Both the position numbers and the translations under genes were made by a program. Below, piece after piece: positions 58,513 through 64,000 of a stretch of 64,000 bases of DNA. Each line of letters opens with the position of its first letter. The stretch's first letter is position 1. Location: the NCBI GenBank assembly GCA_029248185.1, contig JAQWJV010000033.1, forward strand, positions 53,813 through 117,812, in the 5' to 3' direction. This DNA is from Flavobacteriaceae bacterium. Its GTDB lineage: Bacteria > Bacteroidota > Bacteroidia > Flavobacteriales > Flavobacteriaceae. Under the pieces are notes generated by a model, which saw only the letters and a list, made by a program, of their open reading frames with translations, ran no database searches and was not told the origin of the DNA.

Positions 58513-58565
58513 GTTTCCTATTTTGATATTTGAATGCTGGGTCAGTAAGCAAAAAAATAAAAAAA

Positions 58566-58662
58566 GGGCAAGCGACCCACATCACACCGCTACGACCATC
58601 TACCCTTGCTGCGTTCCCGCCCTGGGGGATTCAACAGGAGCTGGTTGTGTAGGACTTGCCCG
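58566..58662 (-). ncRNA. ffs: Bacterial small signal recognition particle RNA (4.5S)
   Basis: Minus strand GGGCAAGTCCTACACAACCAGCTCCTGTTGAATCCCCCAGGGCGGGAACGCAGCAAGGGTAGATGGTCGTAGCGGTGTGATGTGGGTCGCTTGCCC: canonical apical domain (CAGGGCGGGAACGCAGCAAGGGTA) and closing GGGCAAG/CTTGCCC stem. Confidence 0.93.
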
Positions 58663-58745
58663 GCACAAATATAAGCCCTTCATCTGATTTCAACAATCAT
58701 TTTAATTGCTTAATTTCGTGCTTTGCGATCTTTAATTAAATTCAA

Positions 58746-59774
58746 TTGCTTTATCCCATGAAAATCTTTATTTCTTTACTTTCAGCCCTTGTTTTACTCA
58801 AATGTGGTGGCCCAAGCACATCGAATTTTAAAATCGCCACGGGCATGAAAGCTGATAAAGCAAAATGGGGCGATACCCTTCAGCTAAAAATCAAAAACAA
58901 TACCTCCGAAAAAGTAAGCTACTTTTTAAACAATACCCCCATCACATCCAATCATGTACTCACGAATGAACCTTTGGGAGATCAGCTGCTTAAAGCCGTT
59001 ATTAGCTCAGGGGAAAGCACACATGAAGTAGAAAAGACCTTGAGGATTTTAGCCACTACCCCTCCTCTGCTTTACACTTATGAAATCTTAAACACCTATC
59101 CTCACGACAAAACGGCCTATACCCAAGGCTTGGAGTTTAGTGACGAAACACTCTATGAAAGCACCGGATTGAATGGAAAATCCACTCTTCGTACTGTTAA
59201 TTATAAAACAGGAGCGATCATGGAAAACAAACCCCTTGATGAGGCTTATTTTGGAGAAGGTTTGACCTTGCTCAACGAACAGATCATACAACTTACATGG
59301 AAAGCACAAAAAGGTTTTGTATATGATAAAGCAAGTTTAGCCATGAAAAAATCCTTCCCCTATCAAGAAAGTAAAGAAGGTTGGGGCTTGTGCAATGACG
59401 GGCAATATCTCTTCAAATCAGACGGAACCAACCGCATTTGGGTCTTGGATCCAAATACCTATGAAGAGCTCAAAAGCATTCAAGTCATGACCCATAAATC
59501 GCCTGTAAAAAACATCAATGAGCTGGAATGGGTTGAGGGTAAAATTTATGCCAATACCTACCAGTTTGAAAAAGAAGTAAGTGTCATCATTGATCCGATT
59601 AGTGGCGCAGTGGAAGGCGTAATTGATTTTTCAGGCTTAAAAGAACAAGTGGAACAACATGCTCAACTCAATGTATTGAATGGAATTGCCTATCATAAAA
59701 AAAGAAAGACTTTTTTTATTACGGGAAAAAACTGGAGTAAACTTTTTGAAGTACGTATTCTTCCCAAAAAATGA
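58746..59774 (+). CDS. Glutaminyl-peptide cyclotransferase (beta-propeller type) lipoprotein
   Basis: NTYPHDKTAYTQGLEFSDETLYESTGLNGKSTLRTVN; YFGEGLTLLNEQIIQLTWKAQKGFVYD; GIAYHKKRKTFFITGKNWSKLFEV. Confidence 0.9.
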   Translation: MLYPMKIFISLLSALVLLKCGGPSTSNFKIATGMKADKAKWGDTLQLKIKNNTSEKVSYFLNNTPITSNHVLTNEPLGDQLLKAVISSGESTHEVEKTLRILATTPPLLYTYEILNTYPHDKTAYTQGLEFSDETLYESTGLNGKSTLRTVNYKTGAIMENKPLDEAYFGEGLTLLNEQIIQLTWKAQKGFVYDKASLAMKKSFPYQESKEGWGLCNDGQYLFKSDGTNRIWVLDPNTYEELKSIQVMTHKSPVKNINELEWVEGKIYANTYQFEKEVSVIIDPISGAVEGVIDFSGLKEQVEQHAQLNVLNGIAYHKKRKTFFITGKNWSKLFEVRILPKK

Positions 59775-60163
59775 GTAAAACCTATCAATACGACCTTCAA
59801 GTAAAGAAAGAACACCTCGATGCGTTGGAGCATGTCAACAATGTCCAATACCTCCAGTGGGTGCAAGAAATTGCAGGGGCACATTGGGAAGCATTGACTA
59901 AAAACAAAACCGATTCCTATGGGATTTGGGTAGTGAGAAGCCATAAAATTGACTACAAACGTCCTGCGAAACAAAACGATTGGTTAACCCTCAAAACACA
60001 TGTTGCCCTCACCCAAGGGTTTCTATCCCAAAGGATCGTCAAGATTTATTTTAAAGATACTCCCACTCTCGTTGCACTCTGTACCACCCAATGGTGCTAC
60101 CTGGATACCAGCACCCAAAAACTCCTCCGAATTCCTAATGAAATTCAGCGTTTGTTTTCCTAG
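59771..60163 (+). CDS. Acyl-CoA thioesterase (hotdog fold, 4HBT-like)
   Basis: YQYDLQVKKEHLDALEHVNNVQYLQWVQEIAGAHWEALT. Confidence 0.88.
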   Translation: MSKTYQYDLQVKKEHLDALEHVNNVQYLQWVQEIAGAHWEALTKNKTDSYGIWVVRSHKIDYKRPAKQNDWLTLKTHVALTQGFLSQRIVKIYFKDTPTLVALCTTQWCYLDTSTQKLLRIPNEIQRLFS

Positions 60164-60259
60164 CTGTTTTCTTAACGAATTTTATTTAAGTCCCTCTTTA
60201 GGGATGCTTTTCTTTTTTTTGTAACTTCGAATCACACCCCATTTCTATACCCCAATATC

Positions 60260-60505
60260 ATGACCCAACGGCTCATATCCTCATTTCACTCCTTCCTTAT
60301 TCGTATCACGTATTTTTCGGAAAAGAGTATCAATATCTCTCTTAGGCAGGGGCGATTGGGTCAAGATAGTATTAAAACTAAAGTAATATTTAGTCAGGTC
60401 TCTACACGAGAAATGGGAAAAATAAAAACACCTTGGATGATTTTTTTAAAAAATAGAAGTTTAACAATTCATGCTAATTTGGGAAGTATTGTTGAACAAA
60501 AATGA
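60260..60505 (+). CDS. Hypothetical protein, possibly a remnant
   Basis: 81-aa open frame with ATG at the start of the accessory segment; no recognised family. Confidence 0.3.
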   Translation: MTQRLISSFHSFLIRITYFSEKSINISLRQGRLGQDSIKTKVIFSQVSTREMGKIKTPWMIFLKNRSLTIHANLGSIVEQK

Positions 60506-60532
60506 AAATATAATGGATAAACACACCTAAGG

Positions 60533-60557
60533 TGGATATATACACTAGTTAGCACAC
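60533..60557. repeat. Cassette-boundary-like right half-site
   Basis: GGATATATACACTAGTTAGCACA; its reverse complement TGTGCTAACTAGTGTATATATCC resembles GGCTAACAATGTATATAAGCC at 63971. Confidence 0.5.
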
Positions 60558-60580
60558 ATTTAAGAAAAACAGAACTAAAA

Positions 60581-61126
60581 TTGAAAAAAGACTACATATT
60601 TAAATCTAAAAGACTCGGATTTCGCAATTGGACTAAAAACGATTTGAACGAATTTGCAAAACTCAATGCGGATTTGGAAGTGATGGAACATTTCCCCAAA
60701 ACTTTGACAGAAAAAGAATCAGCGGAATTAATTGAGTGTTTTCAAAAACATTTTAAAAATAACGGATATACTTATTTCGCGACAGAAACTTTGGAAAATA
60801 AAGAATTAATCGGATTTATTGGTTTGGCATTTCAAGAGTATAAAACTGAATTTACACCTGCAGTTGATATGGGTTGGCGACTGAAAAAAAATATTTGGAG
60901 AAATGGATTTGCAACTGAAGGAGCAAAGAAATGTCTGGAGTTTGGATTTAACGAACTGAATTTGGAAAAAGTCATCGCTACATGCACAGAGCAAAATTCC
61001 AAATCTGAAAATGTGATGAAAAAAATCGGAATGGAAAAAATTGGAGAATTTAAGCATCCAGAATTGAAAGAATATCCCTAATACGAAAAATGTATTTGTT
61101 ATGAAATTAATAAAAACGTTTGGTAA
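60581..61126 (+). pseudogene. GNAT family N-acetyltransferase, interrupted near the C-terminus by in-frame TAA (61079-61081)
   Basis: FKSKRLGFRNWTKNDLNEFAKLNADLEVMEHFPKTLT...GWRLKKNIWRNGFATEGAKKCLEFGF...ATCTEQNSKSENVMKKIGMEKIGEFKHPELKEYP then *YEKCICYEINKNVW in frame to TAA 61124-61126. Confidence 0.75.
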
Positions 61127-61199
61127 CAATGGCTCATACGCAATGTTTTTGCCGCAGTTACAACACAAAAAACACTAGGCATAGCCTAATCGTTAACTG
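61117..61199. repeat. Imperfect inverted-repeat cassette-boundary-like element
   Basis: CGTTTGGTAACAATGGCTCATACGC...GGCATAGCCTAATCGTTAACTG; arms share TAACnAT..GGCT.AT in opposite orientation. Confidence 0.55.
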
Positions 61200-61222
61200 T
61201 TATTGAATAGAACCATTCGACC

Positions 61223-61678
61223 ATGCGTAAAATTATCTTATTATTAATCCTTTTTAAAACTTTAACCTCAGTTGCTCAAAACAATCAAATTTGGTATGCA
61301 TTTTGGGACGAGGATGCAACTCATATAGGATTTAAGGATCTAAAGGGTGAAATAAAAATCGAACCCAACCGTATCGGTTTTACGATGGCACGGAAATTTG
61401 ATAAAATAATGGCTGTCATTGAAGATGATAATGGTGTTTATAAGAACTATTATTTGACAAAAAGTGGCAAAAAAGTTGGTGTCGATAGTCTTTATATTCA
61501 GGATAATACGGCTGATTGTGAAAGCGAAGGATTTATAAGATTTAAAGACAACAAAACTGAAATGGTAGGAATGTTTAACCAAAACGGTGAAATTGCTATA
61601 CCTGCTCAATACAACACTTTGGCTCAGTGCAAACTTGAAGGTTTATCGGTTTCTACTGCCCTACTTGCCAAATACTAA
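61223..61678 (+). CDS. WG-repeat-like secreted protein, probably 3'-truncated
   Basis: Signal peptide; DATHIGFKDLKGEIKIEP...MVGMFNQNGEIAIPAQYNTL; ends abruptly with the atypical tail AQCKLEGLSVSTALLAKY. Confidence 0.6.
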   Translation: MRKIILLLILFKTLTSVAQNNQIWYAFWDEDATHIGFKDLKGEIKIEPNRIGFTMARKFDKIMAVIEDDNGVYKNYYLTKSGKKVGVDSLYIQDNTADCESEGFIRFKDNKTEMVGMFNQNGEIAIPAQYNTLAQCKLEGLSVSTALLAKY

Positions 61679-61690
61679 TCGTTGGCTACC
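61672..61690. repeat. Cassette-boundary-like right half-site
   Basis: TACTAATCGTTGGCTACCA; shares CTAATCGTT with the right arm at 61186-61194. Confidence 0.4.
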
Positions 61691-61704
61691 ATAAATGAAC
61701 AGAA

Positions 61705-62574
61705 ATGGGATATCACATAGTAAACATAAAAAAAAATGAGATTGAGCATAAGTATGTTGAAAAAATGCTAGAAATTGCCTATTTAAATAATATTTCTGAC
61801 GATACAATAATTTATCAAGGCGAAAAGCAATGGAATCCAGTACGTGTAGGCAATGAATCTCGTTACAGAAATTACTCAAAAGATTGGTTTCGAGCGGGAA
61901 TAAAAGCACAAGAATTGTTCAAGAAACAGGCCAAGAAAGAAAATTTAGTACTTGAAGAGCTTTTTCAAGATGAAAGTAGCTTTCAACAATATTTAATAAC
62001 AGAGAAGTATATCGCAATTAAGCGTGGGGATTTTTTAGTGCGAAACTATGGAAATATCGAAATTGATGTAAAGTGCAGAGGATTTTATAAAGATAATCAG
62101 AAAAATATAGTTTTCAACTTTAAGTGTGAGGATGTCCAAAGACATTTAAATATGCAAACCCTTACTAAAACACCTATTGTTATCGCTGTTTACAAAAGAA
62201 GTGGAGATAGAGTAATTGAAGAAACTCCACATTTTTTTTCAATAAGTGGGACAGATTTTTCTGAGTTTCATAAAGTATATGTAAAAACTGAGAATACAGG
62301 GTATTGTTATCAAATTCTTCTAAACAAAACAGAGCAAAATTTTGATTTTATTAAAAAGAACCATAAGCTATATAAATCATATTTGGTTGAAGAGATTAGA
62401 AAAAAACATAGGAATGCATATAAAAAGTGGACAAAAGAAGAAGATAATAATTTAGAACTTCATTTTTGTGAAAAGAAACCTATTGATGAACTTTGCTCAA
62501 TATTTGGGAGAAACAAGGGAGCTATCAAATCGAGAATTGAAAAATTGGAATTAAAACTAAAATACGGTAGGTGA
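61705..62574 (+). CDS. Putative PD-(D/E)XK-type nuclease with C-terminal Myb/SANT-like HTH
   Basis: IKRGDFLVRNYGNIEIDVKCRGFY (D...ExDxK) and C-terminal KKWTKEEDNNLELHFCEKKPIDELCSIFGRNKGAIKSRIEKLELK. Confidence 0.6.
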   Translation: MGYHIVNIKKNEIEHKYVEKMLEIAYLNNISDDTIIYQGEKQWNPVRVGNESRYRNYSKDWFRAGIKAQELFKKQAKKENLVLEELFQDESSFQQYLITEKYIAIKRGDFLVRNYGNIEIDVKCRGFYKDNQKNIVFNFKCEDVQRHLNMQTLTKTPIVIAVYKRSGDRVIEETPHFFSISGTDFSEFHKVYVKTENTGYCYQILLNKTEQNFDFIKKNHKLYKSYLVEEIRKKHRNAYKKWTKEEDNNLELHFCEKKPIDELCSIFGRNKGAIKSRIEKLELKLKYGR

Positions 62575-62595
62575 CAGTGTGCATAGTGCATACCC
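62570..62595. repeat. Cassette-boundary-like left half-site
   Basis: GGTGACAGTGTGCATAGTGCATACCC aligns with GGCTAACAATGTATATAAGCCATACCC at 63971 with one gap. Confidence 0.45.
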
Positions 62596-62708
62596 TAGGG
62601 ATAAATACCATATACTGGTCCCTTAGCTTTTATTCTAAAGAGCTAATAACCCCTCTAAATTCTTTGTTTAACTTCTCATTTAGTTATATTTAAAAACAAA
62701 AGAAAATA

Positions 62709-63965
62709 ATGAACTATTATATCTACTTATTTTTTCTTATCGGATCGCTTTTAAGGGTAAATCATCAGGCAATTGCACAAACAACTGAATCCGAAACAGA
62801 ACCGTTTCAAAATCGAATAGTGGATTCCCTATTCTCTAAAACTTTAAATGAAAGCCATGATTTTTGGGTAAGATTACCCGAAAATTTTCAGCCAGATAAT
62901 GATGAAAAATATGCCGTGATTTATCTAATGGATGGATTTTCACTAGAAAGTACTTTGGAGGCTGTTTATGGAAATTATTGGGGGCATTACCTCCCACATA
63001 TGATACTTGTTGGAATTTCTAATCGCAGCAACCGAATAAGAGATTTAACTACTTCACAGATAAAAATGAGACGCGGTAGTGCAATGAACGACGAAACGGG
63101 AGGTGCGGAAGCTTTTACTATATTTATGGAGAAGGAACTCATTCCATATATTGATAGTAAGTATCCAACCCTGCCCTATCGGACCTTAATTGGGCATTCT
63201 TATGCCGGTTTGTTTACTATAAATATGTTGGTAAATCATAAACACCTCTTTCAAAACTATATCGCCATAGATCCAAGTTTGTATTGGGACGACCAAAAAT
63301 TATTGAAGGAGGCAAAAGAAAAGCTGAGTACACAAAGTTATGACGACAAATCCCTTTATGTGTCTTTAGCAGCAGAGCAGCTTCATATGTGGAATGAAGA
63401 AATAACCCTGGAGAATATTATGGATGACTCTACAGAATTTACTTTGTTTGCACGTTCAATCATTGAGTTTTCAAATTATACTAAATCTCAAAAACAAAAT
63501 GGATTACATTTTTCATGGAAGGTTTACAATGAAGATTTACATGGTACAGTTCCGTTACCCTCAATAAGAGATGGGCTAATATTTCTTTTTGAATGGTATC
63601 AGTTTAAATCTCCACAAAAATATAATAATCCAGAAACCCCTTTAGAAGGATTGATTTCGCTATTGAAGGAGCAGGAACAAATCTATACCGAACATTTTGG
63701 TGTTCCCACTGCACCAATGATAGATGAAATGTTAAATGGCTATGGCTACATGAATATGGAAATGGGACAACCTAAGAAGGCGTTCATATTTTTTGAAATG
63801 AATATTAAGTATAATCCAACAAGTGCAAATGCTTATGATTCGATGGCTGAGTATTATGAATCTCAAAACGACAAAGAGAATGCTTTAAAATACTTAAACA
63901 AGGCCTACGAAATTAGTGGTGACGATTACTATAAAGAAAGAATTGAAGCTCTAAATAAAAAATAA
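62709..63965 (+). CDS. Secreted alpha/beta-hydrolase (esterase/Fes-like) with C-terminal TPR-like repeat
   Basis: Signal peptide; YAVIYLMDGFSLESTLEAVYGNYWGHYLPHMILVGISNRSNRIRDLTTSQ; LIGHSYAGLFTINMLV (GxSxG); C-terminal ANAYDSMAEYYESQNDKENALKYLNKAYEIS. Confidence 0.85.
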   Translation: MNYYIYLFFLIGSLLRVNHQAIAQTTESETEPFQNRIVDSLFSKTLNESHDFWVRLPENFQPDNDEKYAVIYLMDGFSLESTLEAVYGNYWGHYLPHMILVGISNRSNRIRDLTTSQIKMRRGSAMNDETGGAEAFTIFMEKELIPYIDSKYPTLPYRTLIGHSYAGLFTINMLVNHKHLFQNYIAIDPSLYWDDQKLLKEAKEKLSTQSYDDKSLYVSLAAEQLHMWNEEITLENIMDDSTEFTLFARSIIEFSNYTKSQKQNGLHFSWKVYNEDLHGTVPLPSIRDGLIFLFEWYQFKSPQKYNNPETPLEGLISLLKEQEQIYTEHFGVPTAPMIDEMLNGYGYMNMEMGQPKKAFIFFEMNIKYNPTSANAYDSMAEYYESQNDKENALKYLNKAYEISGDDYYKERIEALNKK

Positions 63966-64000
63966 CGAAAGGCTAACAATGTATATAAGCCATACCCTTC
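63966..64000. repeat. Cassette-boundary-like left half-site, truncated by window end
   Basis: CGAAAGGCTAACAATGTATATAAGCCATACCCTTC immediately after the esterase stop. Confidence 0.5.

Follow-up and report, generated by a model that had tools for sequence, protein, structure and literature searches.

The DNA analysed here (the window) is a stretch of 64,000 nucleotides that forms the right end of contig C8 in a Flavobacteriaceae metagenome assembly (G000; 1.9 Mb, 53 contigs, 89% complete), which kinship tables group into one family with many larger genomes. Window positions 60164 to 64000 very likely represent the front of a decayed integron-type array of a Bacteroidota lineage, consisting of an integrase relic, an attI-like site, and at least four co-oriented single-gene cassettes with an attC-like hairpin site at the end of each. 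Judged from sequence, the system to which this array belongs is an integron variant, predicted to work like an integron without the IntI integrase domain and core. Four attC-like sites are recognizable by their anatomy, and the integrase relic lies at the head of the array.

Four genes in the same orientation, encoding GNAT, WG-repeat-like, nuclease/Myb-like, and esterase-tetratricopeptide repeat (TPR) proteins, occupy the region between a thioesterase gene, which ends at 60163, and the end of the contig. The features are as follows; the caret in G^TT marks the predicted crossover, and closure denotes complementarity between the first bases of a cassette and its own end.

59771 to 60163, plus strand: acyl-ACP thioesterase-like gene, left chromosomal flank (Pfam; glyA adjacency in congeners)
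60164 to 60532, plus strand: leader, 86% identical to the same-locus leader of sister species G025 and 78 to 81% identical to a second copy on contig C21 of G000
60308 to 60436, plus strand: degenerate tyrosine recombinase C-terminus (profile hidden Markov model, HMM); the catalytic Tyr region reads TKVIFSQV, and NTLDDFF is kept in a shifted frame
60510 to 60557, plus strand: attI-like site with predicted crossover G^TT at 60548/60549; its position agrees with that of the G011 site relative to the integrase remnant, and the G025 leader homology stops at 60551
60549 to 61192, plus strand: cassette 1, GNAT acetyltransferase (open reading frame [ORF] 60581 to 61081; Pfam PF13302, E 3e-30) and attC; closure 8/10
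61118 to 61198, plus strand: attC-like site of cassette 1, best window match of an independent covariance model
61193 to 61681, plus strand: cassette 2, WG-repeat-like protein (frame 61223 to 61678; Pfam PF14903, E 3e-4, below cutoff)
61605 to 61687, plus strand: inner and right half of an attC of the ~200-nt class, similar to an attC of locus L032 (E about 1e-24)
61682 to 62622, plus strand: cassette 3, nuclease/Myb-like protein (ORF 61705 to 62574, no Pfam match) and degenerate attC; closure 7/10, or 9/10 counting G-T pairs
62566 to 62628, plus strand: degenerate attC-like site of cassette 3; the right core reads CTTAGC, not GTTAGC, and cassette 4 homology starts at 62630
62623 to 64000, plus strand: cassette 4, esterase and TPR protein (ORF 62709 to 63965; Pfam PF00756), cut by the contig end
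63968 to 64000, plus strand: left half of the cassette 4 attC, cut by the contig end; weak covariance-model match, complete in the G034 copy

The protein of cassette 2 is probably truncated at its 3′ end, because the reading frame enters the attC and its final codons lie within the attC homology.

Closure and similarity of the window sites

A sequence-only reading of this DNA had pointed to related half-sites around each of the four genes, and all of them were found at, or a few bases from, the positions it gave. Of the seven bases after the start triplet, five match the cassette's own end in the GNAT unit, five in the nuclease unit, and six in the esterase unit, while cross-paired window cassettes reach a closure of 2 to 3 of 7. 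None of 33,333 random triples equalled the summed closure score of the window, so that the similarity exceeds that expected at random, though the anchor triplets were picked by eye and post hoc and the test is hence somewhat optimistic.

The sites are also related to those of distant genomes. A covariance model built without the window's genus, from other genera only and covering one site class, had its best match in the 64 kb at 61121 to 61198 (E 0.0047), and its third-best match was the cut site at 63971 to 64000 (weak, E 1.9). Over 76 nt, the site at about 61605 to 61690 is 92% identical to a complete site from an array that is headed by an integrase and belongs to another family (L032).

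Integrase relic in the leader and intact integrases in the genus

An integrase HMM derived from 41 Bacteroidota integrases had its top match in the window within the leader (E 9e-4, next-best 1.8, among 1296 six-frame stretches), and it matched the G025 leader at E 3e-8. In another genome of the genus (G011), a truncated but better preserved integrase copy lies 40 nt upstream of the attI. The leader is therefore read as a decayed co-oriented integrase gene. The sequence-only reading had seen no integrase, which holds for a functional gene in the vicinity of the array but overlooks the degenerate relic.

The recombinase that it proposed to look for is present in intact form elsewhere in the genome. 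A 280-aa integrase relative on contig C46 is divergent from accessory genes and carries R138 (GLR box), HMLRH, LLGH, and Y262. Within the same genus, contig C55 of G018 shows the complete order of a divergent integrase, attI, an HNH cassette, a complete attC, and then the next cassette. Given its decayed sites and relic local integrase, the window array is probably dead or acted on in trans.

A second leader copy with an integrase relic heads an NTF2-like cassette at a contig end of G000 (C21; L007:1-1000), and contig C22 ends with a further NTF2-like copy and, after it, a complete attC (L008:6100-6559). A second array probably spans these two contig ends.

Chromosomal locus and differences between species at cassette boundaries

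The thioesterase gene and glyA are convergent on one contig in 25 congeneric genomes, and in 20 of these the gap between them measures about 8 to 57 bp. In the remaining five it measures 201 to 1590 bp, and no attC-like site was seen in these inserts. The thioesterase-glyA gap is a general insertion hotspot. Inserts in G023, G012, and G021 (L200, L202, and L203) comprise a Crp-like regulator with a DoxX-like gene, a membrane protein, and a CPBP-like gene.

In G000, the window ends inside a cassette array sited between these two genes, and glyA lies at the end of contig C52, beside a second esterase-TPR cassette end (90% identical). Synteny makes it very probable that a single array runs across C8 and C52 and that the break between them falls at a duplicated cassette.

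Sister species G025 has a 97% identical thioesterase gene, and the leader after it matches that of the window at 86% DNA identity as far as base 60551. This homology ends three bases past the predicted crossover G at 60548, after which other cassettes follow before glyA, namely one for a membrane protein, which closes perfectly (GTTACCTGC/GCAGGTAAC), and one with a serine-hydrolase-like gene. The esterase-TPR cassette recurs at two further places with about 90% identity (G000:C52, 90%; G034:C23, 89 to 90%), and no close relative of it was found in the other genomes of the genus. The G034 copy sits between a ZIP-like gene and a 5S rRNA gene (the latter judged from sequence), has a complete attC, and its homology to the window begins at 62630. 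Homology with relatives thus breaks no more than 8 nt from either predicted boundary, 60548 or 62622.

These comparisons bear on an alternative in which unrelated accessory genes accumulated by chance at an AT-rich hotspot of insertion and the half-sites are coincidental. The inserts without such a site at the same locus in G023, G012, and G021 would fit it, as would hairpin energies that are not significant and the fact that Pfam links none of the window genes. It is nevertheless hardly credible in view of the identity to an integrase-headed attC, the covariance-model match, the closure, the leader shared with G025 up to an exact breakpoint, and the occurrence of the same cassette at three places.

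Arrays, closure, and site structure in other Bacteroidota

A tyrosine recombinase gene followed by attI and tandem cassettes was found at locus L031 and in Flavobacterium enshiense, F. aciduliphilum, Winogradskyella ursingii, Seonamhaeicola, Algibacter onchidii, Rufibacter, and a Sphingobacteriales metagenome-assembled genome. The integrase gene adjoins attI and the array in L042, L052, L059, and L250 to L253 and, within the window's genus, in G018 and G011.

All 61 cassettes collected begin with G^TT, and in all 61 the first 8 nt, counted from the G of GTT, complement the cassette's own end; the ninth nucleotide does so in 58 and the tenth in 39. The cassette detector itself demanded complementarity at 9 of 10 bases, so that part of the closure percentage follows from the detection rule. 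Independent of this rule are the tiling of closed units into arrays beside an integrase and their near absence from loci outside Bacteroidota, where more than one closed cassette per strand was found only in L110, a locus with a true IntI (one each in L074 and L078). Detection by hairpin only was noisy, with many chance sites per locus, and almost all false positives disappeared once closure was required. At position 11, counted from the start, all 61 cassettes have an A, which is unpaired in 60, and position 12 pairs again in 48; speculatively, the unpaired A may mark the strand or the end.

Most sites are about 131 nt long, with other classes near 67, 165, and 195 nt. Sixteen sites of 131 nt fit a hairpin in which an outer and an inner stem are separated by an asymmetric spacer (3 vs. 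6 nt). Across them 95% of the pairs are kept and 10 pairs changed on both sides; none of 500 shuffles reached any of the five covariation measures, and a slid alignment was 24 to 40% paired.

On the integrase side, L250 to L253, L052, and L042 share a conserved attI, in which a short palindrome lies 40 to 60 bp after the integrase stop and is followed in most of these loci by CCAATTG^TT and in one by CAACTG^TT. Most Bacteroidota cassette integrases have an extra N-terminal domain of ~100 aa that is absent from the copies in the window's genus (L027 and L029; alignment columns 1 to 115).

In a search of Rfam, no family matched any site, and the matches were confined to signal recognition particle (SRP) RNA, tRNAs, and one Flavo-1 RNA. 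The Flavo-1 RNA is found a short distance upstream of the cassette integrase gene of Algibacter (L079:9514-9592), and the window holds a Bacteroidales small SRP RNA gene at 58562 to 58668 on the minus strand. A search of a phage collection gave no match.

Distribution, duplication, and dispersal of cassettes

Further copies of the sites beside other ORFs were recovered with the covariance model in 15 of 38 genomes of the window's genus and, at E<=1e-4, in 80 of 396 Bacteroidota genomes, about a fifth. It matched none of 28 control genomes outside Bacteroidota, in a search that had no positive control. Site families are common to different groups. The pattern GYTAACAATGTATA, which served only for seeds, had five matches in four genomes. 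Integrase relatives were present in all 12 site-rich genomes searched (cutoff 1e-15). Plasmid pPP2 of Persicobacter psychrovividus (L256) has 16 matching places, and a 24-kb stretch of it holds 24 co-oriented annotated genes, mostly hypothetical, and 17 closed cassettes. The genes of this plasmid array include GNAT, suppressor-of-fused, and TNT-like ones.

The single-contig genome G284 contains one cassette, encoding a 263-aa protein, in five copies at different array positions (G284:C1:1106000-1130000; L233 and L234). Three copies are essentially identical, and the others have 2 to 5 mismatches over the compared stretch. The first two are identical over the 1004 to 1005 nt between G^TT and the following site, and sequences upstream of the copies diverge 1 to 3 bases from G^TT, with 8 bases in one pair. 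Another cassette of this genome, present at two loci, is identical over 746 nt with edges a few bases from the prediction. The five copies suggest recent cassette duplication in the G284 array. Gain, loss, or movement of cassettes exactly at the boundary is seen in two settings, between G000 and G025 at one locus and in the five-copy cassette. In G284 and G256, sites and closed cassettes also lie at several distant positions on both strands, as if inserting outside arrays.

That sites of one family occupy many places on the chromosomes of G284 and G256 would also be expected if they were dispersed miniature repeats or palindromes of miniature inverted-repeat transposable elements, lying between genes that are not themselves mobile. 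We consider this very unlikely, because closure ties both ends of each gene unit together through cassette-specific bases, cross-pairs in the window fail to close, the copies comprise gene and site with exact edges, and the arrays begin at an attI beside a recombinase.

Proposed mechanism and points against it

The sequence-only reading had suggested a recombination-mediated, integron-resembling, possibly non-classical cassette system of Bacteroidetes. This suggestion is supported: it would have fallen with sites confined to this segment, with no precise cassette differences upon comparison, or with similarity no greater than random, and the results went the other way on each point.

In the mechanism that we propose, a tyrosine recombinase of the XerA/IntI-like group, encoded next to the array, would recognize single-strand hairpins and, through attC x attC recombination at G^TT, release a cassette in circular form. 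The circle would regain a perfect core stem, cassette start and end being complementary, and could then insert at attI, or at another site, through attI x attC recombination. The window array, having lost its own integrase and with its sites drifted, would at best be mobilized in trans by the C46 integrase.

Several points weigh against an integron-type array in the window. Recombination is deduced, and no event was observed directly. Contigs C8 and C52 were placed at one locus via synteny, without a sequence or read join. One window site alone is convincingly recognized by the covariance model; the site at 62570/62620 (S3) lacks both GTT and a covariance-model match, and the 61118 and 62564 sites, folded as single strands, have energies no better than those of shuffled sequences. 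Most of the lower matches in the search of 12 genomes for integrases are probably XerC/D. Many sites of G284 and G256 are chromosomally far apart, and a pure array model is therefore insufficient without insertion at secondary sites.

Comparison with known systems

The array-linked integrases scored 187 to 218 bits against the IntI family TIGR02249, compared with a cutoff of 265 and with 404 to 472 for four true IntI. Their alignments to this family break off at about residue 180 and resume at about 238, a hole that true IntI do not show, and the alignment to the structure 2A3V has a gap at 189 to 246. The ~40-aa additional domain of IntI is missing in 18 of 18 array-linked integrases checked, the distance from the Lys motif to HxLRH is 58 to 63 aa vs. 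81 to 100 aa in IntI, and IntI form a separate clade (100/100) with the array-linked integrases outside. None of 60 relative genomes passes the IntI cutoff. By family scores, missing domain, motif spacing, and clade, a system that would act in the manner of an integron thus falls outside what is now defined as the IntI family.

An ordinary classical integron, or a cluster of attC sites without an integrase (CALIN), would share the general layout, and classical integrons have been reported in Bacteroidota, e.g., in Salinibacter (PMC9024848). The IntI and the GTTRRRY sites would then have been missed through the incompleteness of the genome. We regard this as unlikely, since the integrases that do adjoin arrays differ from IntI in score, alignment, motif spacing, and clade, and the outer core GTTRRRY fits only 4 of the 61 cassettes.

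Open-access surveys list few Bacteroidota integrons, earlier ones as integrase-only elements and later a complete one in Salinibacter (PMC9024848). An early survey chose integrases by the IntI additional domain (PMC2426708) and could not detect those described here because its selection relied on that domain, which has been stated for archaeal IntI to be a defining feature of cassette integrases (PMC9668308). No report of this Bacteroidota integron type was found in the open-access literature, a scope that excludes preprints and subscription papers. It appears that a widespread gene-capture system of Bacteroidota was overlooked by surveys relying on the IntI domain and core sequence. If so, a large pool of mobile genes has been missed in a major environmental phylum, and the defining role of the additional domain for cassette integrases becomes directly testable.

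A more far-reaching, tentative and on balance doubtful idea is that integrons arose more than once, with XerA-like recombinases of Bacteroidota gaining cassette recombination independently of IntI, with their own hairpin class and without the additional domain. The tree leaves undecided whether IntI and these integrases had a common cassette-recombining ancestor. The best family for the integrases is NCBIfam NF040815 (XerA/integron-like; 224.6 bits for the genome's own copy, cutoff 220), and the top PDB matches are XerC-like 4a8e and XerA 5hxy. In this respect they resemble XerA-like recombinases but differ from them in being linked to cassette arrays and, for the most part, in their extra N-terminal domain.

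With classical integrons, the Bacteroidota system shares tandem single-gene cassettes in one orientation, an attI beside a tyrosine recombinase, and sites that are imperfect palindromes (paired outer core, unpaired spacer, and inner stem) with closure and a predicted crossover after the G of GTT. It differs in an integrase without the additional domain, below the family cutoff and outside the IntI clade, in sites that rarely fit GTTRRRY and have a closure of 8 to 10 nt with a nearly always unpaired A at position 11, and in an attI that in several genera consists of a short hairpin and CCAATTG^TT. The inverted integrons of Treponema (PMC3607928) are similar in that the integrase is transcribed toward attI and along the cassettes, as in most Bacteroidota arrays and in the window relic, but they are described with intI, and the window's genus has both co-oriented (G011) and divergent (G018 and C46 of G000) integrases. 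CALIN as defined by IntegronFinder (PMC9024848) resemble the window array, which has no functional integrase nearby; the differences are the Bacteroidota-type sites of the window and the relic integrase at the head of its array.

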